Shown here: in pieces, positions 22,224 through 62,583 of the stretch
Layout: each line of letters starts with the position of its first letter
How positions within the stretch are numbered: the stretch's first letter is position 1
Source: Roseomonas gilardii subsp. gilardii
GTDB lineage: Bacteria > Pseudomonadota > Alphaproteobacteria > Acetobacterales > Acetobacteraceae
Assembly (NCBI RefSeq): GCF_023078375.1
Contig: NZ_CP095554.1
Location: 806,001-870,000, forward strand
DNA length: 64,000 nt
Direction: 5' to 3'
The notes under the pieces: generated by a model
The model's input: only the letters and a program-made list of their open reading frames with translations
Told to the model about the DNA's origin: nothing
The model's database searches: none
Translations under genes and position numbers: made by a program

Positions 22224-24905
22224 GTGGCCTCACCTTTACGCTGGGTCGTTGCCCGGCTCCGCCGCCGTCCCGACAAGGAACACGAGATCGCCCTGAACCG
22301 GGTGGCGATCGCCCTTTGCGCGCTGGTGTACTTCTTCCTGGTGGTGCCCTCCGACGCCTCGCTGGAGGAGGCGCGGCGGCTCTGCGCCGTCTTCGCCGTC
22401 GCGACCTTGCTGATCTTCGGGCATCTGATGCTCCGCCCCGGGGTTTCCGTGCTGCGGCGCCTGGCGGGGATCGTGCTGGATCTCGGCATCCTGTCAGGTG
22501 GGCTGCTCACCGGCGGGGTCTATGTGGCCGCGCTCTACCCGCTCTATCTCTGGGTGATCTTCGGCAACGGCTTCCGCTTCGGCATCGCCTATCTCGGCTT
22601 CGCGGCGGGCCTGTCCATCCTGGCCTTCGGCACCATCATCCACGTCTCGCCCTATTGGCAGGCCAATTATCCCCTGGGCCTGGGCCTGCTGGCGGGGCTG
22701 ATCGTCCTGCCCGGCTATGCCGCCATGCTGATCCGCAAGCTGTCCCTGGCGCGGGACCAGGCGGAACAGGCCAGCCAGGCGAAGAGCCTCTTCCTGGCCA
22801 GCGTCAGCCACGAATTGCGCACGCCGGTCACCGCCATCATCGGCATGAACGACCTGCTGCGCCGCACGCCGCTGCAGCCGGAACAGCGGGAGATGACGGG
22901 GACGATCCAGACCTCCACGCGCGCTCTGATCTCGCTGATCGACGACCTGCTGAACCTGTCGCGGCTGGATGCGGGCCGCGTCAGCTTCGAGCAGGTGGTC
23001 TTCGATCCGGTGGCGGTGCTGCGCGATGCGGCACGGCTGGTCACCGCCCAGGCGCTGGAGAAGGACCTGCGGCTCGGCTTCCATGTCACGCCGCGCAGCA
23101 CCGGCCTGCTGCGCGGCGATCGGCGGCGCCTGGGCGAGGTGCTGCTGAACCTGACCGGCAACGCGGTGAAGTTCACCCATCAGGGCGGGGTGGTCCTGGC
23201 GCTGGACATGCAGGAGCAGGCGGGAAACATCCTGCTGCGGCTGGAGGTGTCGGATACCGGGATCGGCATCGCGCCCGAGGCCCAGGAGCGGATCTTCGAG
23301 AGCTTCACCCAGGCGCATGAGCGGATCGCCAATGATTTCGGTGGCACGGGGCTGGGCCTGTCCATCTCCCGCCGCCTGGTCCGGGCGCAGGGGGGCGAGA
23401 TCGGGGTACGCAGCCGCCTGGGCCGCGGCAGCACGCTCTGGCTCATCCTGCCCATGGAGCGTGTGGGCGCCGAGGACCTTCCTCCGCCCACCCCCTGGCA
23501 TGCGGTGGTGCTGGTTCACGATGCCAGCCTGCTGCCGGCCCTGGAACAGGCGGCGGGGCCTGCCGGTCTGTACCTCGCCGTGGCGTGGAGCCGCGACGAG
23601 GCCCGCCGGCTCCTCGCCGCCTCCCCCTTCGGCCCTTCCATGGTTCCTCCGCTGGCATCGCCGGGCGATGGGCCGCGGATGCTGATCCTGCTGGGCGAGG
23701 AGTCCGCCACCCCGGCGGAACAGGCCCTGGAGGACCCGGCGCCGCCGGCCTTTCCCGATCTGCCGCCGGAGGCTGCGCGCCTGCCTGTCCTGCTGATCCG
23801 GCCCGATACGCTGCCCGGGCTCCCGGAACCTTCGCGGCGCTTCGGGGCCTTCGCCATCCTGTCGGCGCAGCGCCTGGCCACGGAACTGCCGCCCGTGCTG
23901 CGCGCCGCCCATACGCTCTGGCGGGTGGGGACGGAGGAGGAGCAGGCGCTGGCCAGCCGGCGTGTGCCCGGCCGGCATATCCTGGTGGTGGACGACAACC
24001 GGGTGAACCAGAAGGTGCTCTCGCGGATGCTGGAAACCGGCGGCCATGTCGCCACCCTGGCCAGCAACGGGGAGGAGGCGCTGGACCTGCTGGAGCGGGA
24101 CAGCTTCGACCTCGTCCTGATGGATATCAACATGCCGGTCATGGGGGGGCTGGAGGCGACCAAGCTCTACCGCATGGCCTCGCTCGGCCAGCCGCACCTG
24201 CCCATCGTCGCCCTGACCGCCGATGCCACCAGCCAGGCACGGGAGAGGGCGCTGGAGGCCGGCATGGATGCCTGCCTGACCAAGCCGATCGATCTGGAGA
24301 CCCTACTGGATCTCGTGGAACGCCTTCTGGACGACAAGCCGCCCGCAGCGTCGCCGGCTGGGCGCCGGGCCGCTCCGTTGGCCCTGGTCCCGCCGGACGG
24401 AGCCCCGCTCCGGCCCGCCGCGGTTGCGCCGCCCTGGACCGTCTATGAGAATCCGAGGCCGCAGGCGGAGTCCACACCGGCTCCGGCCCCGCCCCCTGTT
24501 CCTCCTGCCCATGGAGGAGGGCCCGCTGTGGCCGGCCTGCCGCTGCTCGATGAAACGATGCTGGACAATCTGGAGACGCTGGGCGGCGCCGGCTTCGTCG
24601 CTGACGTGGTTGCCTCCTTCGTCACGGAAGCGGCCGCCCATCTGGAGGAGGTGCGGAAGGCCGTCCTCCGGGATGACGGCGCGGCATTCCGGGACAGGGT
24701 GCATGCCCTGCGCAGCAGCGCGGCCAATGTCGGCGCGCTGGTTCTGCCGGAACTCTGCCGCGACTGGCAGTTCGCCAGCGACGAGACGGTGCGCCGGAAC
24801 GGCACGGAGATGGCGGCGCGGCTCGTCGCCGAGTTCGAGGCGGTGCGGGCGGCGCTGCTGCGGCGCCAGGCCATGCCGCCCGTGCTGGTGACCCGGCGGG
24901 ACTGA
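22224..24905 (+). CDS. rpfC: RpfC-like hybrid sensor histidine kinase (HisKA-HATPase-REC-HPt)
   Basis: 893-residue membrane hybrid kinase. Residues ~25-172 hold five or six hydrophobic segments including YPLYLWVIFGNGFRFG, the hallmark of RpfC-type input modules. Then come HisKA with H196 (ASVSHELRTPV; Xanthomonas RpfC uses H198), HATPase_c with NLTGNAVKF, DTGIGIAPEA and GGTGLGLSIS, a receiver domain with D634 (LVLMDINMPVMGG), and a C-terminal HPt with H827 (VHALRSSAANVGA). This is the RpfC architecture that senses diffusible signal factor and relays phosphate to RpfG. An RpfF-like DSF synthase is convergent 114 bases away, which strengthens the call. No HD-GYP partner is in the window. The start is GTG with a weak ribosome site. 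Confidence 0.82.
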   Translation: MASPLRWVVARLRRRPDKEHEIALNRVAIALCALVYFFLVVPSDASLEEARRLCAVFAVATLLIFGHLMLRPGVSVLRRLAGIVLDLGILSGGLLTGGVYVAALYPLYLWVIFGNGFRFGIAYLGFAAGLSILAFGTIIHVSPYWQANYPLGLGLLAGLIVLPGYAAMLIRKLSLARDQAEQASQAKSLFLASVSHELRTPVTAIIGMNDLLRRTPLQPEQREMTGTIQTSTRALISLIDDLLNLSRLDAGRVSFEQVVFDPVAVLRDAARLVTAQALEKDLRLGFHVTPRSTGLLRGDRRRLGEVLLNLTGNAVKFTHQGGVVLALDMQEQAGNILLRLEVSDTGIGIAPEAQERIFESFTQAHERIANDFGGTGLGLSISRRLVRAQGGEIGVRSRLGRGSTLWLILPMERVGAEDLPPPTPWHAVVLVHDASLLPALEQAAGPAGLYLAVAWSRDEARRLLAASPFGPSMVPPLASPGDGPRMLILLGEESATPAEQALEDPAPPAFPDLPPEAARLPVLLIRPDTLPGLPEPSRRFGAFAILSAQRLATELPPVLRAAHTLWRVGTEEEQALASRRVPGRHILVVDDNRVNQKVLSRMLETGGHVATLASNGEEALDLLERDSFDLVLMDINMPVMGGLEATKLYRMASLGQPHLPIVALTADATSQARERALEAGMDACLTKPIDLETLLDLVERLLDDKPPAASPAGRRAAPLALVPPDGAPLRPAAVAPPWTVYENPRPQAESTPAPAPPPVPPAHGGGPAVAGLPLLDETMLDNLETLGGAGFVADVVASFVTEAAAHLEEVRKAVLRDDGAAFRDRVHALRSSAANVGALVLPELCRDWQFASDETVRRNGTEMAARLVAEFEAVRAALLRRQAMPPVLVTRRD

Positions 24906-24957
24906 CCCCGCCGCCGCAAGCCTTGTCCCGGCTGACAGCCTGGAAGGGCGGAGCCGC

Positions 24958-24974
24958 CGGGGAGGGCCTCCCCG
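24958..24974. terminator. Symmetric hairpin between convergent rpfC and rpfF
   Basis: CGGGGA and TCCCCG pair around GGGCC, midway between the two stop codons. It could end transcription from both sides. It lacks a T tract on either strand, so confidence is low. Confidence 0.35.
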
Positions 24975-25019
24975 CCGGTCCTTCTCCTTTGCCCGGTGTC
25001 ATGGGCATGGGACGGGTCG

Positions 25020-26012
25020 TCACTCGGCCGCGATGCCGATCCCCCGGTCCCGGCTGGTCCGGCGCTCCTGTGCCGCGGCGAGGCGCTCCATCTTGCGCAG
25101 GTCCGCCGGGGTCAGGCGCATCGCCGCGTCCACCCAGACATCGACGATGTCACGCAGCTCCTTCAGCGTCACCGGGGCGGCGATGTGGCGGGCACGGAAC
25201 ACCGCCTGCATCGCGTTGTGCCGGCGGCCCTGCCCGGCGATGTACTGGCGCAGCTCCTCGTCGCCCTGGCCCGGGGTCAGCAGCATGTCCACCAGGCCCA
25301 GCTCATGCAGCTCCTCGGCGGTGTAGATGCGGCCGCTCAGGATCATGCGCTCGGCCTGCACGGCGCCGATGCGGCGGGCGATCAGGCTGTAGGCGCCCAT
25401 GCCGGGGAAGAGGTTGAACAGCACCTCCGGCAGGCCGAACTTGGTGCCCCGTTCCGCCGCGATCAGGTTGCAGGACAGCGCCGTCTCAAAGCCGCCGCCC
25501 AGGGCGTCGCCCTGCACCAGCGCGATGGTCACGACCGGGGCGCCGTAGCTGACGAGGTTGTTGTAGACCACATCGATGCAGCGATGCGCGTAGTGCTGCA
25601 GCAGCACCCGCTGCTCCTTGCGCACCGCATCGGCGAAGAGCTTCAGGTCCCCGCCCATGTTGAAGATGCCGGGGATGCCCGAGGCGACGACGAAATAGTC
25701 GAAAGGACGCTTCTCCTCGCCGGCCTGGGCCAGCCAGTGGGCGACATCCGCCTGCATCTCGGTCAGGTCGCGCAGCACACCCGGGGAGACGCAGGGCCGG
25801 CCCTGCGGGGTCAGGCGGCACCAGAAGGTGCGGGCCTCGGCATCCAGCCGGACGCGGATATCGGCGAAGTCCTTGTCCAGGACCAGGCTGCCATCCCTGG
25901 CGACGGGGCTGAGGCCCTGGACCTCCATACGGGCGGACACCAGCTGGTGCTGCACCGGCGAGCTGGAGAAGGAGGCCGGGTTGGAGAAGGAAGTGGTGGG
26001 GAAGTAGGTCAT
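25020..26012 (-). CDS. rpfF: RpfF-like DSF synthase (crotonase superfamily)
   Basis: 330-residue crotonase-fold enzyme with the motif string of diffusible-signal-factor synthases: IFNMGGDLKLF, then IALVQGDALGGGFE, LSCNLIAAERGTKFGLPEVLF, NLFPGMGAYSL and ILSGRIYTAEELHELGLVD. E176 and E196 are 20 residues apart, as are the catalytic E141 and E161 of Xanthomonas RpfF, which dehydrate and thioesterify 3-hydroxyacyl-ACP to cis-2-unsaturated fatty acids. An ordinary enoyl-CoA hydratase lacks the QGDALGGGFE-LPEVLF combination. I chose the ATG after GGAAAGG; a GTG ten codons upstream is possible. It is convergent with the RpfC-like kinase, unlike the usual tandem rpf order. The ~40 extra N-terminal residues are low-complexity. 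Confidence 0.84.
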   Translation of the reverse strand: MTYFPTTSFSNPASFSSSPVQHQLVSARMEVQGLSPVARDGSLVLDKDFADIRVRLDAEARTFWCRLTPQGRPCVSPGVLRDLTEMQADVAHWLAQAGEEKRPFDYFVVASGIPGIFNMGGDLKLFADAVRKEQRVLLQHYAHRCIDVVYNNLVSYGAPVVTIALVQGDALGGGFETALSCNLIAAERGTKFGLPEVLFNLFPGMGAYSLIARRIGAVQAERMILSGRIYTAEELHELGLVDMLLTPGQGDEELRQYIAGQGRRHNAMQAVFRARHIAAPVTLKELRDIVDVWVDAAMRLTPADLRKMERLAAAQERRTSRDRGIGIAAE

Positions 26013-26451
26013 GGGGAAGCCTTTCCAAAGGAACGCGGACACCTCTTTCGCCCGGCGAGCGGGCAGGGAGGCATCGGCATTCTGAATAAGGCCCTCCTCG
26101 CCGTCTTTGCCCGCAATGCTTCGTGCGAAAGGAATTGTGTGACAGGGGAAGAAGCAGGAAGCGCCGATATTTGTTTCCTATAGGAAACAAAATGGCGAAT
26201 GCTTCGTGTTCCCCCGTGGATGCCGGTGCCAGGTGCTTCGGGGGCCATGGGGCCCGATCCGGCCGCAAGGGGGACGCAATCCCCGGCACCGGGGTTCCGC
26301 TTCGATGTCGGAGCTCTTCCCGTGCGCTCCATCTCGGCGCTCTTTCGCTCGATGGCTGGCGGATGGTGCCGGGCCGCCGTCTTGGCCGGGCCTGGATGTC
26401 CCCGGACGGCGGGTGACGGTGGCGCCTGTGGGCATCACCGTCGGAGATGGC
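26013..26451. other. Long intergenic region between rpfF and rfbC
   Basis: Open frames here are composition shadows without family features. Besides the palindrome above, a hairpin GACGGTG...CACCGTC (26415-26442) follows the rfbC stop and may be its 3' structure. The region around 26080-26200 has lower GC than its surroundings and probably carries the rpfF promoter. Confidence 0.4.
26170..26191. promoter_or_regulatory. Perfect 22-base palindrome upstream of rpfF
   Basis: The arm TTTGTTTCCTA is followed at once by its exact complement TAGGAAACAAA. It lies ~160 bases before the rpfF start in an AT-richer patch and is a strong candidate operator for a dimeric regulator. I do not recognise the family with certainty. 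It could act on rpfF (minus strand) or be a remnant control site for a lost plus-strand gene. Confidence 0.55.
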
Positions 26452-54594: not shown

Positions 54595-55203
54595 TCAGAA
54601 GCGGCGCTCGAAGACGTTGATCACGTCGCCGGGCTGGATCAGGCTCTGACGGGACACGAGACCCTCCTGGCCCTTGCCGTCGGTGATGCGCACCACGGAG
54701 GCGCGGTCGGTCACGGCGCGGTAGGTGAAGCCGCCGGCCACCGCCACGGCGGTCAGCATGGTCATGCCGGGGCGGTAGGGGTACTCGCCGGGCTTCGCCA
54801 CCTCACCCAGCACGAAGACCGGGCGATAGGTCTGCACCTGGGCCACCACGTTCGGGTCGCGCAGCAACTGGCGGCGCTTCATCTCGGCGGCGAGCTGGGT
54901 CGAGAGTTCCGAGGAGGTCAGCCCGGCCGCCTTGACGTTGCCGAGCAGCGGGAAGGCGATGTTGCCGGCGTCGTTCACCCTGAAATCACCGCCGAGCTGG
55001 TCCTCGCCGAAGGTGGTCACGCGGATCTCGTCACCGACGCCGAGGCGGTAGGCGGAGGGCTGGGCCTCGGCCAGCGGCTGCAGGTCACGGCCCGGGGCGC
55101 AGGCGCTGGCCATCAGGCTCAGGCCGAGCACGGCGGCGGTGGCCATGCGGAAGGGCCGGCGGGGCCGCGCTCGCGTGGCGGAAGAAGAGGAAGAGTGCGG
55201 CAC
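54595..55203 (-). CDS. Polysaccharide export lipoprotein, Wza/GumB type
   Basis: 202-residue outer-membrane export protein. From the GTG after GGAGGAAC, residues 1-35 form a basic n-region and lipoprotein signal ending MASAC. Poly_export domain: YRLGVGDEIRVTTFGEDQLGGDFRVNDAGNIAFPLLG. A SLBB repeat follows: VFVLGEVAKPGEYPYRPGMTMLTAVAVAGGFTYRA. It forms the periplasmic entry and outer-membrane conduit for exopolysaccharide. It is the short, GumB-like form. The GTG start is preferred because the later ATG would leave no positive n-region. Confidence 0.86.
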   Translation of the reverse strand: MPHSSSSSATRARPRRPFRMATAAVLGLSLMASACAPGRDLQPLAEAQPSAYRLGVGDEIRVTTFGEDQLGGDFRVNDAGNIAFPLLGNVKAAGLTSSELSTQLAAEMKRRQLLRDPNVVAQVQTYRPVFVLGEVAKPGEYPYRPGMTMLTAVAVAGGFTYRAVTDRASVVRITDGKGQEGLVSRQSLIQPGDVINVFERRF

Positions 55204-55324
55204 GGACAGAGGTTCCTCCGAGGGGTTGAGGGCAGGAAGGCTCCCCGGCCCGGGCCGGCCGGAGCCAGCCGGAGGGGAGCATGGGTGAGGGGTGCCGGTG
55301 CGCCGGGGGGACGCTGTCCGGGCC

Positions 55325-56641
55325 TCACAGGCCGAATCCCACCCGCAGCAGCGCGAGGTGGCGATCGTAATTGGAATTGGTGCCGCTGCCGCTGCCATCA
55401 CGGTTGGTGAAGTCGTAGCTGAGGCGCAGCGAGATGTTGCGGTTCATGAACCAGGTGGCATAGGCGCCGGTGCCGATCACGGTGCTGTCGCCGCCGCCGG
55501 TGAACTTGGCATGCAGGTAGTCGGCCCGCGCGCCGATCAGCACGTTGCGCAGCAGCTCGTGGTCCACCGCGATCTGGGCCTGGTTGTAGGTATAGCCTTG
55601 CAGCGTGTCGGTGGAGGTGTCCTCGATCCGGCGGGAGGCGAGGCCGCTGATCGTGGTCAGCCGCGTCGGCGACCAGGCGACCGCCGCCTCGAAGACCGGC
55701 GAGGAGCGGTCCTTCGCGCCCGTCGCGTCGAAGAAGCGGACCTGGTAGCCGACCAGGGCGCGGTAGCGGAACACGGCGCCGCTGCTGTCGTCGAAGCCGG
55801 CCAGGGCGAGCACCGTGTCCGAGCCCAGCTTGCCGTAGGTGGGGTCGTAGTTCACGTAGTCGGAACGGCCGCCGCGCACCACGAAGACCAGGTCGCGCCG
55901 GGGGGCCACGGCATAGCGCGTGGTGATGCCGCCATTATAGACGTTCCGGTCGCGCAGCTTCTGATTGAAGGTGCTGCCATCGTCGAAGGCATCCACGAAG
56001 CGGAAGGCCTGGAAGATGAAGTCCGGCGTGATGGAGACGTTGCTGAAGGTCGCGCGGTAGGCGGCGCGGAGATCATAGGCGTTGAAGGCGCGCGGCTCGG
56101 CCACCGTCTGGGCGTCGAAGGCCGTCGCTTCCTCATGCAGGCGGAAATAGGAGGCGCTGGCCGAGAAGGTGTCGCGGCCGATGTCGTAGGAGCCGCCGAC
56201 CGTGGTGTTGAAATTGGTGCGGCTGGGATCGGGCGTTCCCGCATTGCGCCCGGTCACGCGGCGGTCATCCACGCCGGCGGTGGCATAGAGGCTGTCGCGC
56301 GCCCAGTTCGAGCGCAGGTCCAGCGCGGCATCGGTGCTGAAGGTGCCGATCGTGTCGCCCCGGCTGGTGCCGAGCGGGTTGGTGTCGACACCCATGGCCT
56401 CGCCCAGGCTAGGGCGGAGGGTGAAACCCCCGAGCCGGACGCCGAGCGGCTGCACCTCGGGGCGCGGACGCTGGGTGACGTCCATGTCCTCCGGCCGCAC
56501 GTTCTCGGGAAAGGCTTCCAGGGAGAAGCGGGAGTAGTAGTTGTTGGGCAGGTACTGGTCGAGCAACTGGGCATGGGCGGGGGCCGGGCCGAGGAGCGCG
56601 GCGGCACCCAGGATGGTGGCACCCAGGCCGGTCGCCTTCAG
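55325..56641 (-). CDS. Outer-membrane beta-barrel protein of the exopolysaccharide locus
   Basis: About 440 residues of beta-barrel (alternating strands, ending LALLRVGFGL with terminal hydrophobic residues, as outer-membrane barrels do). It resembles the BBP2-like proteins beside exopolysaccharide export genes in Acetobacteraceae. A signal peptide, KATGLGATILGAAALLGPAPAHA, reads in frame, but between the upstream stop (56677-56675) and that signal no ATG, GTG or TTG occurs. CTG at 56641 is the only candidate; the TTG at 56566 lies after the signal. An ATG exists one frame over, so a sequence frameshift at the 5' end is possible. Confidence 0.75.
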   Translation of the reverse strand: MKATGLGATILGAAALLGPAPAHAQLLDQYLPNNYYSRFSLEAFPENVRPEDMDVTQRPRPEVQPLGVRLGGFTLRPSLGEAMGVDTNPLGTSRGDTIGTFSTDAALDLRSNWARDSLYATAGVDDRRVTGRNAGTPDPSRTNFNTTVGGSYDIGRDTFSASASYFRLHEEATAFDAQTVAEPRAFNAYDLRAAYRATFSNVSITPDFIFQAFRFVDAFDDGSTFNQKLRDRNVYNGGITTRYAVAPRRDLVFVVRGGRSDYVNYDPTYGKLGSDTVLALAGFDDSSGAVFRYRALVGYQVRFFDATGAKDRSSPVFEAAVAWSPTRLTTISGLASRRIEDTSTDTLQGYTYNQAQIAVDHELLRNVLIGARADYLHAKFTGGGDSTVIGTGAYATWFMNRNISLRLSYDFTNRDGSGSGTNSNYDRHLALLRVGFGL

Positions 56642-56915
56642 GGCGAGGCCGGCGCCATCCCGCCGGGGGTCTCGTCAGACGTGACAACCCAGGCTCTGCC
56701 CCGGTTCCCGCCTGTTCGACTGCGCCGTGTCCCGCTTCCGCCCCTCAAAAACATCCCATGATCCACGATTCGTTTCATCCGGAGAGACACAGCTTACAGC
56801 ATATGCCGTCCCTGGGGGACAGAATCCGGAGGAATAATAGAGTCGTAACGTTCTGCGACGGCGGTTATGGCTTTCCGGCCACAGATGCCGCGTTGACACG
56901 CGCAGGTAGCGGGTT

Positions 56916-58106
56916 TCAGCTCCCCTGCCGCTGGCGGACTTCCCGCACCACGGAGAGCACACCCTCCCGCATGCGGTCCTCGCTGAACAAGGCAAGGGCG
57001 CGGCGCTCGCCCGCCTCGATTCGGGCCTGGGTGGCGGCGGGATCCTGCCGGATCTCCCGCAGCGCCGCCGCCAGGGCGGAATCGTCGCCCGGGGGGACCA
57101 GCAGCCCGGCCTCGTTGTCGCCGGCGATCTCCGGGATGGCGCCGGCCGAGGCGGCGACGAGCGGCGTGCGGCAGAGCATGGCCTCCACCAGGGTGCGGCC
57201 GAAGGGTTCCGGGTCGGTGGAGGGATGCACCACCACATCCATGGCCCGCATCAGCGCCGGCACGTCGTGGCGGTGGCCGAGGAAGCGGACACGGTCGGCG
57301 ATGCCCAGCTCCTCCGCCAGCCGCCGCAGGCTGGCGGCGTAGTCATCCTCGCCGAACAGGGCGTCGCCGGTGATGATGCCCACCGCCCCGGGCACCTTCG
57401 TCACGGCGCGCAGCACCACGGCCTGGCCCTTCCAGGGCGAGAGGCGGCTGAACACGCCGACCAGGAAGCCCTCTCCGGGCAGGCCCAGCGCCGCGCGGCG
57501 TTCCGCCATGCCGGCGCCAGCCATCGGGTCGGGCGGCAGGGTCACGCCATTGGGCACCACCCGCACCCGGTCCGCCCGGCCGCAGAGCGTGGTGAAGGCA
57601 TCGGCGGCGGCCTGGGAGGGCACGATCACCCGCGTGGCGAGCGGCGCCAGGGTGCGCAACAGCCTGAGCTGTCCGCCGCCGAAATGCGCTGGCGTCAGGA
57701 TGTCGTGCAGGTGCCAGACCAGGGGCCGCCCGGCCAGCTTCGCCGCCAGGGCGGAAAGCACGAAGGCCTTCTGCGAATTGGCATAGACCATGTCGTGCCG
57801 CCGCGCGGCGGCGGCGATCTCGCGCACCATGCGCAGCATGCCGCCCAGCATCGGCAGCGCCGCGCGCGCCATGCCCTGGTCGCGCTTGATGTCGGTGAAG
57901 CCAGAGGGACGCGAGGGCATCAGCACCCGCGGCGGGTGATCGGCCAGGGCGGTTTTCAACGGCCCGTCCTCGAACAGCCAGACGGAGGAATTCGCCCCGA
58001 AGGCGCGCAGGTTGGCGAGCAGGATGAACTCCGCCCCACCGGTGCGGCTGGAATGGTTGACGAAGAGCACGCGCGGGGTGTCCGAGGGGAGGTCGTGGCC
58101 GTCCAT
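56916..58106 (-). CDS. Glycosyltransferase family 4
   Basis: 396-residue GT-B glycosyltransferase. N-terminal acceptor domain VLFVNHSSRTGGAEFILLANL; C-terminal donor-site motifs VGVFSRLSPWKGQAVVLRAV, RFLGHRHDVPALMRAMDVVVHPSTDPEPFGRTLVEAML and the E-x7-E pattern around EPFGRTLVEA. It retains sugar configuration and most likely adds one residue to the lipid-linked exopolysaccharide repeat on the cytoplasmic face. Which sugar is unknown. Confidence 0.88.
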   Translation of the reverse strand: MDGHDLPSDTPRVLFVNHSSRTGGAEFILLANLRAFGANSSVWLFEDGPLKTALADHPPRVLMPSRPSGFTDIKRDQGMARAALPMLGGMLRMVREIAAAARRHDMVYANSQKAFVLSALAAKLAGRPLVWHLHDILTPAHFGGGQLRLLRTLAPLATRVIVPSQAAADAFTTLCGRADRVRVVPNGVTLPPDPMAGAGMAERRAALGLPGEGFLVGVFSRLSPWKGQAVVLRAVTKVPGAVGIITGDALFGEDDYAASLRRLAEELGIADRVRFLGHRHDVPALMRAMDVVVHPSTDPEPFGRTLVEAMLCRTPLVAASAGAIPEIAGDNEAGLLVPPGDDSALAAALREIRQDPAATQARIEAGERRALALFSEDRMREGVLSVVREVRQRQGS

Positions 58107-58179
58107 GCCGTGTCCAGTGCCCTATCCGGTTCTGGCCCGCGCCGGATCGGGCGCGGACGCGGGGTTGCGAGGGGGGTGT

Positions 58180-59535
58180 TCAGCGCGGGGTGAGGCGCAG
58201 CAGCGTGACCTGGGCCGTCACCGGCAGGGTGATGCCGCCGCCGGAAAGGGCGGCCTCCTGGAAGCGGGCATCCTCGTTGGGGCGGTTCACGGCGGCCTGG
58301 CGGACCCGGTCGCCGAAAGCGATCCGCACCTCCTGCGGTGGCACCGGCGTCTCGGTGAAGCTGTGCACGTCCCAGAGCGACTTTGCCAGCCAGAGGGCCA
58401 GGAGGAAGCTGCCGTCGCGCTTCTGGAACAGGCAGGTTTCCAGCCCCTCCGTCTCGCCGGACAGGTTGACCGGCAGCCGGGCGGGGGCGAAGGCGGGGCC
58501 GGGGTCGGAGAAGGCGGCGATCAGGTTGCGCATGGCGTGGAAGGCCGGCTTGCGCGACCCGTCATGCCGCAGCCAGCCGAAATTCTGCTCTGGATCGTCC
58601 TTGTCCGTGCCCTGGTCGAAGAACTCGTACTTGAAGCTGCGCGCCACGCCGAAGCGGCGGTAGTACAGGAAGAGGCGCGGTTCATAGGCGGCGGAGACGG
58701 GTTCCGGGCAGCCGGAATGTGGGTTGGTGGTCCGCGCCTTCTGCGTGATCGCGTTGTGGTAGCCGACTTCGGTGGCGACGAAGGGCGCCTTGGCGCCCAG
58801 CAGCGGCGTGACCAGCAGGTCGCGCGCCCAGCGCAGGCTGCCATAGCCGTTGTCGCCCCAGCCCCCGGTCTCCGGCATGCGGCCGGCCGGATAGGGGTGG
58901 ATATTGCCATACTCGGCATAGGGGGCCTGCCGGGCGAAGCGCGCCCGGTTGCCCGCCTGGATCAGAGCCGAGGCGATCACCGGGATGTCCCGCGCCCGGC
59001 CGATCCCGGACAGGATGCGCTGATGGTCGATCGCCATCTCCGGCGTGTGCCCCGGGCGGCCGCCCCACCAGCCATCGGGCTCGTTCACGCCCTCCAGCAT
59101 GGCGATGTTCTCGCGGCCGACCTCATCCAGCGCCCGGGACAGTTCCACCGAGGAGGTTGCCTCCGGCCCGCTGAGCAGGGTCAGCCGGATGCCGAGCTGG
59201 GCCACCTGCCGCAACCTGGTCAGGACGCCACGATCCAGGCCGACACCATCGCGCGCGTGGCGGATGCGCAGCTCCCGCAGTGCCGGCAGGATCACCTTCT
59301 CCCAGCGGTCGCCCTCGATATAGCTGTTGCCGGGCCAGCAATGGATGTTGACGCCGATGCTGTCCACGAGCGAGTCGGCGGCCATGGCCTGCATGCCCTG
59401 GCCCTCCGCCCCACCGGCACCGGGCGCGGCGCGGGCCGGGGCGATCCACCCCGCCGCAGCCCCGGCCGAGGCCGCCAGCAGGCCCGCGCCGATCCGCCGC
59501 CGCGTCAGGCCGGGGAGGTTGCGCCGCACCGTCAC
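58180..59535 (-). CDS. Secreted clan GH-A glycoside hydrolase-like protein
   Basis: 451 residues with a Tat-like signal (TRRRIGAGLLAASAGAAAGW). The barrel DSIGVNIHCWPGNSY ... RIRHARDGVGLD ... LLSGPEA carries E152 in the NEP motif (LEGVNEPDGWW), the usual GH-A acid/base, and E256 in FVATEVGYHN, the usual nucleophile. The last ~110 residues form a beta-sandwich (SFLLALWLAKSLWDVHSF). The nearest family is perhaps GH39 or GH5-like, not certain. Inside an exopolysaccharide locus it may trim or release polymer. Its start overlaps the stop of the following transferase gene. Confidence 0.72.
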   Translation of the reverse strand: MTVRRNLPGLTRRRIGAGLLAASAGAAAGWIAPARAAPGAGGAEGQGMQAMAADSLVDSIGVNIHCWPGNSYIEGDRWEKVILPALRELRIRHARDGVGLDRGVLTRLRQVAQLGIRLTLLSGPEATSSVELSRALDEVGRENIAMLEGVNEPDGWWGGRPGHTPEMAIDHQRILSGIGRARDIPVIASALIQAGNRARFARQAPYAEYGNIHPYPAGRMPETGGWGDNGYGSLRWARDLLVTPLLGAKAPFVATEVGYHNAITQKARTTNPHSGCPEPVSAAYEPRLFLYYRRFGVARSFKYEFFDQGTDKDDPEQNFGWLRHDGSRKPAFHAMRNLIAAFSDPGPAFAPARLPVNLSGETEGLETCLFQKRDGSFLLALWLAKSLWDVHSFTETPVPPQEVRIAFGDRVRQAAVNRPNEDARFQEAALSGGGITLPVTAQVTLLRLTPR

Positions 59536-60773
59536 GAGCGGGCGGGCTCCGGGGCCGGTTGCGGGGCCGGCTCCGTCAGCGCCAACCCCGCCCCGGGCAC
59601 CGGGCCGCGAAGGACCTCGCCTCCATGCAGCCCGGCGGGCGCCTGGGCCCGGGCGCGCTCCAGCGCCTCGTCCACCACGGCCTTGAAGCGGCTGCGGAAA
59701 CGCTCGGTGGAGAAGCGCCGCGCATTGGCCAGGCAGTTCTCCGGCGTGAAGCGTGCCCGGCTGCCCTCGAAGGCATGGACGGCCGCGATCACCGCCTCTT
59801 CCGTCTGCTCCGCGAAGAAGAGGCCGGTCGGGTCGGCATGGTCGGGGCCCAGCACGGTCTCCGCCAGGCCGCCGGCGCCATAGGCGATCACCGGCGTGCC
59901 GGCGGCCTGGGCCTCCACCGCGGTGATGCCGAAATCCTCGATGCCGGCGAACAGGAAGGCCTGCGCCCCGGCCAGGAGGCGATGCACCTCCGGCGTCGGC
60001 ACGCGGCCCAGGACCTCGACATTCGGCACCTTCATCTCCCGCAGGCGCTTCAGCTCCGGCCCGTTGCCGACGATCTTCAGGCGCTTCTCCGGCATACGGG
60101 CGAAGGCGCGCGCCAGGAGCTCCACGCGCTTATAGGGCACGAGCCGGCAGACGGAGAGGTAGTAATCCTCCTTCTCCACCGAACCGAGCGGCGGCAGTGT
60201 GTCCACATAGACCGGGGGGTGCACCACCCCGGCTTCCCGCCGGTGCGTGCGGCGCAGGCGGTTGGCCACGAAGGCGGAATTGGCCACCATCGTTTCGGGC
60301 CGCTGCGCCGCGCAGAAGTCCCAGATCCGGGCGGAATGCAGCATGCGCCGGGCCAGCCAGCTCTTCGGCCCGCGTTCCATCTTCGCCTCACGCAGGTATT
60401 CGTGCTGCAGGTCCCAGGCATAGCGCATCGGCGAATGCACGTAGGACACATGCGGCTGGTCGGGCCGCGTGAGCACGCCGTAAGCCACGCTGTGGTGGCT
60501 GGTGATCACAAGATCGTAGCCGGTCACGTCAAATTGTTCGACGGCGAGCGGCCAGAGCGGCAGCAATGAGCGATACAGGCGCTCGATCTTCGGGATCTTC
60601 TGGAGAAAGGACGTCCGCACCGGCCGCCCGCCCAGGAAGGCCCGCTGATCGGGTGGCACCACATCCACCACGGCGAAGATGTCTGCCTGCGGATAAAGCG
60701 CCAGGATCTGCTCGATCACCCGCTCCGCGCCGCCATAGGCGGAAATCGAGTCGCTCACGAGGGCTATTCGCAT
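59532..60773 (-). CDS. Glycosyltransferase family 4
   Basis: 413-residue GT-B enzyme. RIALVSDSISAYGGAERVIEQIL and DLVITSHHSVAYGVL in the acceptor half; donor half SVCRLVPYKRVELLARAFARM, KIVGNGPELKRLRE, GIEDFGITAVEAQAAGTPVIAY with the conserved Glu pair. YVHSPMRYAWDLQHEYL is typical of mannosyl- or rhamnosyl-type enzymes in acetan-like clusters. AGGAAA supports the ATG. It closes with a Pro-rich tail, PAPQPAPEPARS. Confidence 0.88.
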   Translation of the reverse strand: MRIALVSDSISAYGGAERVIEQILALYPQADIFAVVDVVPPDQRAFLGGRPVRTSFLQKIPKIERLYRSLLPLWPLAVEQFDVTGYDLVITSHHSVAYGVLTRPDQPHVSYVHSPMRYAWDLQHEYLREAKMERGPKSWLARRMLHSARIWDFCAAQRPETMVANSAFVANRLRRTHRREAGVVHPPVYVDTLPPLGSVEKEDYYLSVCRLVPYKRVELLARAFARMPEKRLKIVGNGPELKRLREMKVPNVEVLGRVPTPEVHRLLAGAQAFLFAGIEDFGITAVEAQAAGTPVIAYGAGGLAETVLGPDHADPTGLFFAEQTEEAVIAAVHAFEGSRARFTPENCLANARRFSTERFRSRFKAVVDEALERARAQAPAGLHGGEVLRGPVPGAGLALTEPAPQPAPEPARS

Positions 60774-60800
60774 TGTCGGTTTCCTGTTGAGGACGGTCAC

Positions 60801-61128
60801 CCGGCTTGTTCGCCTTCCATAGGACGTTCCTTGATCGGCCCGAAGATGGGCGATTCAACGGCCGTGCATGTTTCATCCATCGATCACAGGCAATCCAAGA
60901 TCAACTACGAGTTGAATGAAGTAAAAAATCATCAACCTAAAGTAAGAGTTGTTTTCGAAAAATGATCCGAGTATCTTTATCAAGATTGTTCGAAAAGTTT
61001 TGCTCGCTTTTGCCCATATTGCGGTGCAAAAGATAGGGCGACCCCACGAACCACGACAGCACGACAGCACGAGAAGTCGGACATCCGGTTCGTGTTCAAC
61101 TGACCGGTATTGTGTTGAGGGATACAAC
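60801..61128. other. AT-rich intergenic region between divergent exopolysaccharide genes
   Basis: About 330 bases with no gene; frames open on the plus strand lack family features. From ~60890 to 61030 the sequence is markedly AT-rich against this genome, with CAACT-ACG-AGTTG (60902-60914) as a small dyad. It should hold divergent promoters for the GT4 gene on the left and the sugar-phosphate transferase on the right. GAGGG eight bases before the ATG is the latter's ribosome site. Confidence 0.45.
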
Positions 61129-62583
61129 ATGGGCGACCCAAGACGCATTAAGACCAATCCGGCGATCCGGAAGATGCTGTCTCAGCCGGCGGCCTTTCGT
61201 CCGCAGCGACGCCAGCGGCCCCGCCGGGGCACGCTTCGGCTGTTCATGGCGATTGGTGACTATGCACAGGTCATGGCGGTGGGGCTGGCGCTTTGCCTCG
61301 TCTTCCAGGCCGCACCGACGCCGGATCTGAACCTGAGCCTGGGCCGTGTGGCCGGCGTCGGGATGCTGGCGGCGACGCTGGCGCTCTTCGTGCGCCGTGG
61401 CCTGCGCCGCACCAGCGCCCATCATGTCGGCTCCACCTATGTTTCCTCCGTCCGCAGCGCGGCGGCGGTGGTGATCGCCTTCGGCGGCATCGCCATGGGC
61501 CGTCTGCTGCTGGGCGCCGCGACCGGCCTGGGCGGCGACCTGCTGCTGCTGGCGAGCTGGGCCGTCATCTCCACCGCGCTGGCCGCGGCGCTGCGCCTGG
61601 TGGGCACGCGGCTGATCGCCGGGCCGGAAAGCCTGACCACCAATATCGTGGTCCTCGGCCCCTCGCCCCAGGCCGGCGCCCTGGCGCGCATCCTGACCGA
61701 GCGCAGCCGAGGCCATCGCCAGGTTCTGGCGGTGCTGCAGGACGACCTGCCCGAGAACATGGTCATGCTCGACCAGCTGATCGAGCAGGGCGAGGTGGAC
61801 ATCATCGCCCTGGCCGGCATGGACGCCGAGGGCATCCAGGCCATCTGCGAGGAGTTCGGCGACCGCCCGGTGCATATCTGCGTCGGCTTCGACGCGGTGG
61901 CGCTGGAGCGTGCCGCCCGCGGCTCCAGCCACCTGGACGATCCGGTCCTGCTGCGCCTGCTGCCGGGCCAGTTCGACGACTGGCGTGATTCGGTGAAGCG
62001 GGGCCTCGACATCGCCCTGGTGCTCGCCTCGCTGCCGCTCATCGCGCCGGTGCTGATCCTGGCGGCCATCGCCATCAAGCTGGACTCGCCCGGCCCGGTC
62101 TTCTTCCGCCAGTGGCGCTTCGGCCTCGGCACGCAGCCCGTGCAGATCCTGAAGTTCCGGAGCATGTACACGGACAGGGGCGACACCACCGGCGAGGCCC
62201 GGACCACGGCCCGCGATTCACGCGTGACCCGGGTCGGCCGCATCCTCCGCCGCACCAGCATCGACGAGCTGCCGCAGCTCCTGAACGTGCTGCGGGGGGA
62301 TATGTCCCTGGTCGGGCCGCGGCCGCATGCGACGCATATGAAGGTCGAGGGCAACTACTACTTCGAGGCCGTGGAGCACTATCGCCTCCGTCACCGCGTG
62401 AAGCCGGGCCTGACCGGCTGGGCGCAGGTCAACGGTTCCCGTGGCGAGGTGGATACGCTGGACAAGGCCTATCGCCGCGTGGATCTCGATCTCTGGTACA
62501 TCGACAACTGGTCGATCACCCTGGACCTGAAGATCATCTTCAAGACCGTGTTCGGCGGCTTCGCGACGCTGAAGGCCGACTGA
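61129..62583 (+). CDS. Undecaprenyl-phosphate sugar phosphotransferase (initiating enzyme)
   Basis: 484-residue polyprenol-phosphate hexose-1-phosphate transferase. About four N-terminal hydrophobic helices, a nucleotide-binding-like central region (TNIVVLGPSPQAGALARIL), then the C-terminal catalytic bacterial sugar transferase domain: SVKRGLDIALVLASLPL, SPGPVFFRQWRFG, ILKFRSMYTD, GRILRRTSIDELPQLLNVL, GDMSLVGPRPHA, KPGLTGWAQVNG. It loads the first sugar, probably glucose-1-phosphate as in AceA/GumD, on undecaprenyl phosphate. It starts assembly of the polymer handled by the neighbouring transferases and exporter. Confidence 0.92.
   Translation: MGDPRRIKTNPAIRKMLSQPAAFRPQRRQRPRRGTLRLFMAIGDYAQVMAVGLALCLVFQAAPTPDLNLSLGRVAGVGMLAATLALFVRRGLRRTSAHHVGSTYVSSVRSAAAVVIAFGGIAMGRLLLGAATGLGGDLLLLASWAVISTALAAALRLVGTRLIAGPESLTTNIVVLGPSPQAGALARILTERSRGHRQVLAVLQDDLPENMVMLDQLIEQGEVDIIALAGMDAEGIQAICEEFGDRPVHICVGFDAVALERAARGSSHLDDPVLLRLLPGQFDDWRDSVKRGLDIALVLASLPLIAPVLILAAIAIKLDSPGPVFFRQWRFGLGTQPVQILKFRSMYTDRGDTTGEARTTARDSRVTRVGRILRRTSIDELPQLLNVLRGDMSLVGPRPHATHMKVEGNYYFEAVEHYRLRHRVKPGLTGWAQVNGSRGEVDTLDKAYRRVDLDLWYIDNWSITLDLKIIFKTVFGGFATLKAD

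Follow-up and report, generated by a model that had tools for sequence, protein, structure and literature searches.

Two reviews of signalling by the diffusible signal factor (DSF) family describe two core circuits, RpfC-RpfG and RpfR (PMC4504480, PMC13220807). In Xanthomonas, the rpfGHC genes are convergent to rpfF (PMC4504480). Here we analysed an rpfF-rpfC gene pair located in a 64,000-nucleotide stretch of the genome of Roseomonas gilardii subsp. gilardii (hereafter the window), which an earlier sequence-only reading had proposed as a putative DSF quorum-sensing pair. We consider it likely that the pair belongs to a DSF-type quorum-sensing module whose output is not RpfG but a response regulator of receiver (REC), PAS, GGDEF and EAL domains directed to cyclic di-GMP (c-di-GMP). 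Read directly from sequence are the membership of both genes in their families, the absence of a genomic HD-GYP match, the co-occurrence of the parts across genomes, their like placement in trees and their intact motifs.

The RpfF-RpfC pair of the window

The genes and their principal sites, in window positions, are:

22224..24905, plus strand: rpfC-type hybrid sensor kinase gene, 893 amino acids, with input domain, HisKA, HATPase, receiver and HPt (open reading frame (ORF) calls, Pfam)
22263..22778, plus strand: membrane input domain, residues 14-185, with the conserved YLWVIFGNGFRFG segment (alignment of 53 input domains)
22266..22289, plus strand: N-terminal sensor motif RPDKEHEI, residues 15-22, at the site of R15, D17, S18, E19 and Q22 of Xanthomonas RpfC
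22809..22811, plus strand: codon of H196, HisKA phospho-acceptor (82 of 83 kinases, one gap)
24123..24125, plus strand: codon of D634, receiver phospho-acceptor (83 of 83 kinases)
24702..24704, plus strand: codon of H827, HPt phospho-acceptor (83 of 83 kinases)
24906..25019, no strand: gap of 114 bases between the converging rpfC and rpfF genes (ORF ends)
25020..26012, minus strand: rpfF-type DSF synthase gene, 330 amino acids, crotonase fold family (ORF calls, profile matches, alignment, tree)
25485..25487, minus strand: codon of the first catalytic Glu, E176 (invariant in 37 of 37 aligned proteins; aligned with solved RpfF)
25425..25427, minus strand: codon of the second catalytic Glu, E196 (invariant in 37 of 37; aligned with solved RpfF)

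The sequence-only reading is supported as regards the RpfF/RpfC pair, the lack of RpfG and a different, unlinked output, and was wrong in treating convergence of the two genes as a departure from the paradigm, since this is the canonical Xanthomonas layout and since rpfF and rpfC converge within 500 bp in 62 of 80 relative loci (the best 80 of 580, some near-identical, some lying on stretches that were short or ended by a contig end). Among the remaining loci, 3 carry the genes on the same strand, 4 carry them divergent and farther apart, and 11 have no kinase of at least 250 bits in the stretch. At the Rhodopila locus L068 (genome G112), no kinase of 250 bits stands beside rpfF. Neither rpfB nor rpfH was seen adjoining the window pair among the ORFs read there.

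The synthase frame starts with ATG at 26012, stops at 25020 and stays open up to a GTG at 26042. In a PDB search it matched four RpfF-kind sequences at 1e-56 to 1e-58, among them solved RpfF 3m6m (1.3e-58), whereas no ordinary hydratase scored better than 7.8e-17. Two of these four matches carry the RpfF name, and the others we take to be of that kind; of the three PDB sequences used in the tree below, 3m6m is named RpfF in the PDB, and 7zq7 and 5fus we take to be RpfF-type. The paired Glu residues at RpfF spacing pointed out by the sequence-only reading were borne out: E176 and E196 (330-residue numbering) are invariant in all 37 aligned proteins, window included, and match the Glu pair of Xanthomonas RpfF 3m6m. 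The phylogeny against hydratases that it had set beforehand gave the same answer. A tree of 46 proteins inferred by maximum likelihood set 37 relatives (the window's protein and 36 hand-chosen from the 80 loci) and three PDB sequences, solved RpfF among them, apart with support 100/100 from six enoyl-CoA hydratases of the window's family (seven hydratase loci were tried and one, with no fitting ORF, was dropped). The protein also passes NCBIfam PRK08788 (368 vs 177 bits).

We give almost no credence to the reading in which a housekeeping enoyl-CoA hydratase happens to lie beside a hybrid kinase unrelated to it. Pfam does assign the synthase to ECH_1 only and the protein falls under the NCBIfam RpfF equivalog cut-off, which seems to be tuned to xanthomonads. 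The PDB matches, the invariant Glu pair and the tree, however, all favour RpfF, as do the prevalence of the convergent pair and the presence of RpfC in 21 of 21 strong-RpfF genomes of the family (thresholds below). A housekeeping identity was rejected on the PDB match scores and the tree. By family identity, the window synthase is well supported as RpfF-type, and production of DSF is predicted.

The kinase ORF starts with GTG, and its four Pfam domains, HisKA (186-251), HATPase_c (298-412), Response_reg (586-698) and Hpt (795-875), all scored above cut-off. Together with conservation of the relay residues in 82-83 of 83 kinases (82 relatives and the window), this upheld the full RpfC order described previously. 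In the input module, all 53 aligned domains share the W, three G and the R of YPLYLWVIFGNGFRFG, and the window kinase is the sole match of the genome to the RpfC input-domain profile at E <= 1e-15. On the N-terminal side of residue 170, a hydropathy scan picked out six candidate membrane peaks, centred at 31, 61, 92, 103, 130 and 161, those at 92 and 103 perhaps forming a single helix; five membrane helices are reported for RpfC (PMC5391125). The DSF-sensor residues of Xanthomonas RpfC are R15, D17, S18, E19 and Q22 (PMC5391125) and, placing the match by spacing from that source, R, D and E are kept in the window kinase (3 of 5). Of 76 distinct kinases, 73 keep E, 55 keep D, 43 keep R, 28 keep S and 11 keep Q. 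The input domain is RpfC-like, and DSF sensing is predicted. In Inquilinus-like genomes, additional proteins made of an RpfC input domain and HisKA only adjoin rpfC (L058:11818-13927, L060:4145-5068 and L063:11740-13487); they resemble RpfH, with HisKA confirmed by Pfam in one.

HD-GYP search and the candidate output regulator

HD_5, the Pfam model matched by RpfG-like HD-GYP proteins, gave no match at E <= 0.001 in the window's genome (97.6% complete) and was not found in 36 of 50 RpfF-bearing relative genomes, which cover 50 of the 80 loci. The absence of RpfG near the pair, remarked on in the sequence-only reading, thereby extends from the locus to the whole genome, where no RpfG, linked or unlinked, was found. 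A search of the genome for receivers pointed instead to a REC-PAS-GGDEF-EAL regulator, a candidate lying about 420 kb away, in agreement with the proposal of a different or unlinked output branch.

In many relatives, the gene 5′ of rpfC encodes a response regulator with REC, PAS_4, GGDEF and EAL domains. A receiver model, A2, was built from 25 such regulators, two of them with HisKA, and A2-type receivers above 120 bits were found in 68 of the 80 loci; when present in the fetched stretch, the regulator usually lies 5′ of rpfC. Classified by motif and length (Pfam was run on 12 of the 68), the outputs are GGDEF-EAL in 51, HisKA in 5, HisKA_2 in 2, short REC-PAS only in 7 and HD-GYP in 3, these last all gammaproteobacterial. 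At position 106 of A2, 23 of the 25 model receivers have Ser and the other two have Thr, as does the copy in the window's genome. Canonical receivers carry Lys at this position. Two gammaproteobacterial RpfG-like receivers have Arg there. Another output type was seen at locus L248 (genome G158, of the window's genus), where receiver and PAS are joined to GAF and PAS_3 in a 614-residue ORF.

Co-occurrence of synthase, kinase and receiver

We surveyed 100 genomes of the window's family with thresholds of >170 bits for strong RpfF and >150 bits for the receiver. Strong RpfF was present in 21 genomes, although split in two in G088; 24 genomes carried the RpfC input domain and 23 the receiver, the next best genome for the latter reaching 135 bits. 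All 21 strong-RpfF genomes also possess RpfC, and 23 of the 24 RpfC genomes possess the receiver; in the remaining one, G093, it is cut off in a short frame. None of the three parts was detected at the set thresholds in the remaining 76 genomes. In 22 of the 24 RpfC genomes, RpfC and receiver share a contig and are separated by no more than about 3 kb, the exceptions being the window's own genome (G000) and G058. At locus L050 (genome G088), rpfF consists of two overlapping ORFs in different frames, beside an intact-looking rpfC.

The same pattern was found within the window's genus, where the same 8 of 15 genomes carry RpfF, RpfC and the receiver; three of the genus genomes (G150, G156 and G157) agree in the positions and scores of their matches with the genomes of loci L117, L111 and L089, from Roseomonas aerilata, R. 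nepalensis and R. pecuniae. When another 50 RpfF genomes were searched, 49 proved to have the receiver, with a lowest score of 157 bits, at least 17 of these 49 receivers coming from loci used in building the model.

These data bear on the possibility that the true partner of RpfC, throughout these genomes, is some other receiver that has escaped recognition, the REC-PAS-GGDEF-EAL regulator being a mere frequent neighbour. The partnership of RpfC and receiver is indeed read from sequence, the window's genome has many other receivers (dozens of weaker matches), and in some relatives the same receiver is fused to HisKA or to PAS only. We nevertheless hold this to be improbable in view of the near-perfect co-occurrence, maintained even where the genes are unlinked, and of the like tree placement of the unlinked regulator described below.

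The regulator of the window's genome and its history

In the window's genome, a receiver (194 bits) adjoins a PAS-GGDEF-EAL stretch (720 bits) on contig 1 at 406,035-408,139, minus strand. The two lie in different frames, with third-position G+C content shifting frame between them; scanned apart, the parts gave REC and then PAS_4, GGDEF and EAL, and the catalytic motifs searched for were present. The receiver-output connection may therefore have been lost in the window's strain, or else the assembly is in error there. In two sister species (L246 and L247, with RpfF 97% identical), the regulator is a single ORF of 734-736 residues, also located away from rpfC.

We then compared the histories of the three parts. 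The window RpfF groups with Aureimonas RpfF (100/99) and the window RpfC with Aureimonas RpfC (96), while the regulator of the sister species groups with the Aureimonas regulator (96); both latter values are SH-aLRT support from quick trees, of 47 chosen kinases and 41 chosen regulators respectively. Aureimonas belongs to another family than the window's, and also to another order. The pair and the unlinked regulator thus seem to have a common history; this is our strongest argument for assigning the distant regulator to the window RpfC.

An alternative is that the main action in the window's strain is feedback of RpfC on signal synthesis by RpfF, the phosphorelay being idle or directed to another receiver and the distant GGDEF-EAL regulator a decaying remnant. 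The unlinked position of the regulator and its frame break are in favour, as is the fact that the receiver of Xanthomonas RpfC binds RpfF (PMC13220807; solved pair 3m6m). On the other hand, the two sister species retain the regulator as one ORF and the window's own copy retains its GGDEF, EAL-type and other motifs; any decay would therefore be recent, or the break an assembly error. We regard this alternative as unlikely, though as the strongest of those considered.

The PAS domain

A further alternative, favoured by the identical PAS-GGDEF-EAL order, is that the regulator acts like RpfR, its PAS binding the fatty acid directly, so that RpfC and regulator would be two DSF receptors. Its PAS aligned with that of RpfR (6dgg) at 3.5e-5 over nearly the full length, ranking fifth of 127 chains; other PAS domains fitted better, however (3ewk, 1.4e-14). 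In RpfR, the residues in contact with the Burkholderia diffusible signal factor (BDSF) are S169, N172, Y183, R187 and N202 (PMC6361424). The aligned consensus of 26 PAS domains, read by eye with a hand-derived numbering offset, retains none of these five. An RpfR-type receptor role is consequently not supported, and we judge it very improbable.

Other genes of the window

By eye reading of translations, exopolysaccharide-type genes occupy window positions 54595-62583; the sequence-only reading had put this locus forward as a plausible target of the pair, and it is kept here as a candidate. They comprise a Wza-like export protein, an outer-membrane-type protein, two glycosyltransferases, a glycosidase-like protein and a GumD/WbaP-like sugar transferase.

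Discussion

In the circuit that we favour, with RpfC signalling to the REC-PAS-GGDEF-EAL regulator, RpfF would make a cis-2-unsaturated fatty acid, a DSF-type signal, which RpfC would sense via its short N-terminal sensor and its membrane input domain. RpfC would then autophosphorylate at H196 and relay the phosphate via D634 to H827, and the HPt domain would hand it to the dedicated receiver, carrying PAS-GGDEF-EAL in place of the HD-GYP of RpfG. The signal would thereby alter the c-di-GMP level through the GGDEF-EAL protein. The DSF chemistry and the phosphotransfer are what we infer, along with the direction of the c-di-GMP change and its targets.

Several observations weigh against this circuit. 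On the side of the synthase and the sensor, the NCBIfam RpfF equivalog model gives 235 bits for a cut-off of 550, and two of the five DSF-sensor residues differ in the window kinase (S18 to K, Q22 to I), Q22 being the least retained of the five among the distinct kinases (11 of 76). As to the output, HD_5 is present in 14 of the 50 RpfF genomes, two of them Psychromonas, and the genomes of L102, L107 and L112 have RpfG-like REC-HD_5 places beside the main receiver; because these places score 132-149 bits with the receiver model, the receiver family grades into RpfG receivers. Co-occurrence is also imperfect: no A2-type receiver lies in the fetched stretch of 12 of the 80 loci, the genome of L068 has RpfF and no receiver match at 1e-25, and strong RpfF is missing from three genomes that do carry RpfC and receiver, namely G031 (rated complete though in 380 contigs), G082 and G087 (both rated below 85% complete). 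Fisher tests of the co-occurrence gave 1e-18, 7e-17 and 1e-21 on related genomes, which are non-independent. Finally, the phosphotransfer step is predicted, beyond what the three comparison genomes can show, and the regulator of the window's own genome is both unlinked, some 420 kb from rpfC, and divided between frames.

Taking Alphaproteobacteria as a whole, we lean somewhat towards a third core DSF wiring, distinct from RpfC-RpfG and RpfR. It would consist of RpfF, RpfC and a dedicated Lys-less receiver-PAS module whose outputs have been exchanged, with GGDEF-EAL in most cases and HisKA parts, HisKA_2 parts or no additional domain in others; the lineage of the window would have taken up an Aureimonas-like set, the regulator of which is now far from rpfC. 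If true, a conserved alphaproteobacterial circuit with neither RpfG nor RpfR would widen the reach of DSF signalling to include many environmental and plant-associated genera; it would also allow testing how a kinase-receiver interface persists while the output enzyme is swapped. In the available parts of the open-licence literature, our search found no account of a GGDEF-EAL regulator working with RpfF-RpfC in Alphaproteobacteria; subscription papers, outside its scope, may contain one.

Like the RpfF-RpfC-RpfG system of Xanthomonas campestris, the window has an RpfF-family synthase with its Glu pair and a hybrid kinase with membrane input, HisKA, HATPase, receiver and HPt, encoded by convergent genes, and its output is predicted to act on c-di-GMP. 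Unlike that system, its genome has no HD-GYP match, the receiver is fused to PAS-GGDEF-EAL in most relatives, the window regulator is unlinked, and rpfB and rpfH were not seen alongside in the ORFs as read. With RpfF-RpfR of Burkholderia cenocepacia it shares the association of RpfF and a PAS-GGDEF-EAL protein. RpfR, however, carries FI and not REC, and is itself the protein that binds BDSF (PMC6361424). Here a receiver takes the place of FI (Pfam gives a receiver, and not FI, at the N-terminus of the scanned regulators), there is an RpfC kinase, and none of the BDSF-contact residues is retained. The rpfF-rpfC-rpfG cluster of Leptospirillum, which differs in being one-directional and in having an HD-GYP RpfG (PMC8357829), resembles the window in bringing together rpfF, rpfC and a c-di-GMP regulator outside xanthomonads.

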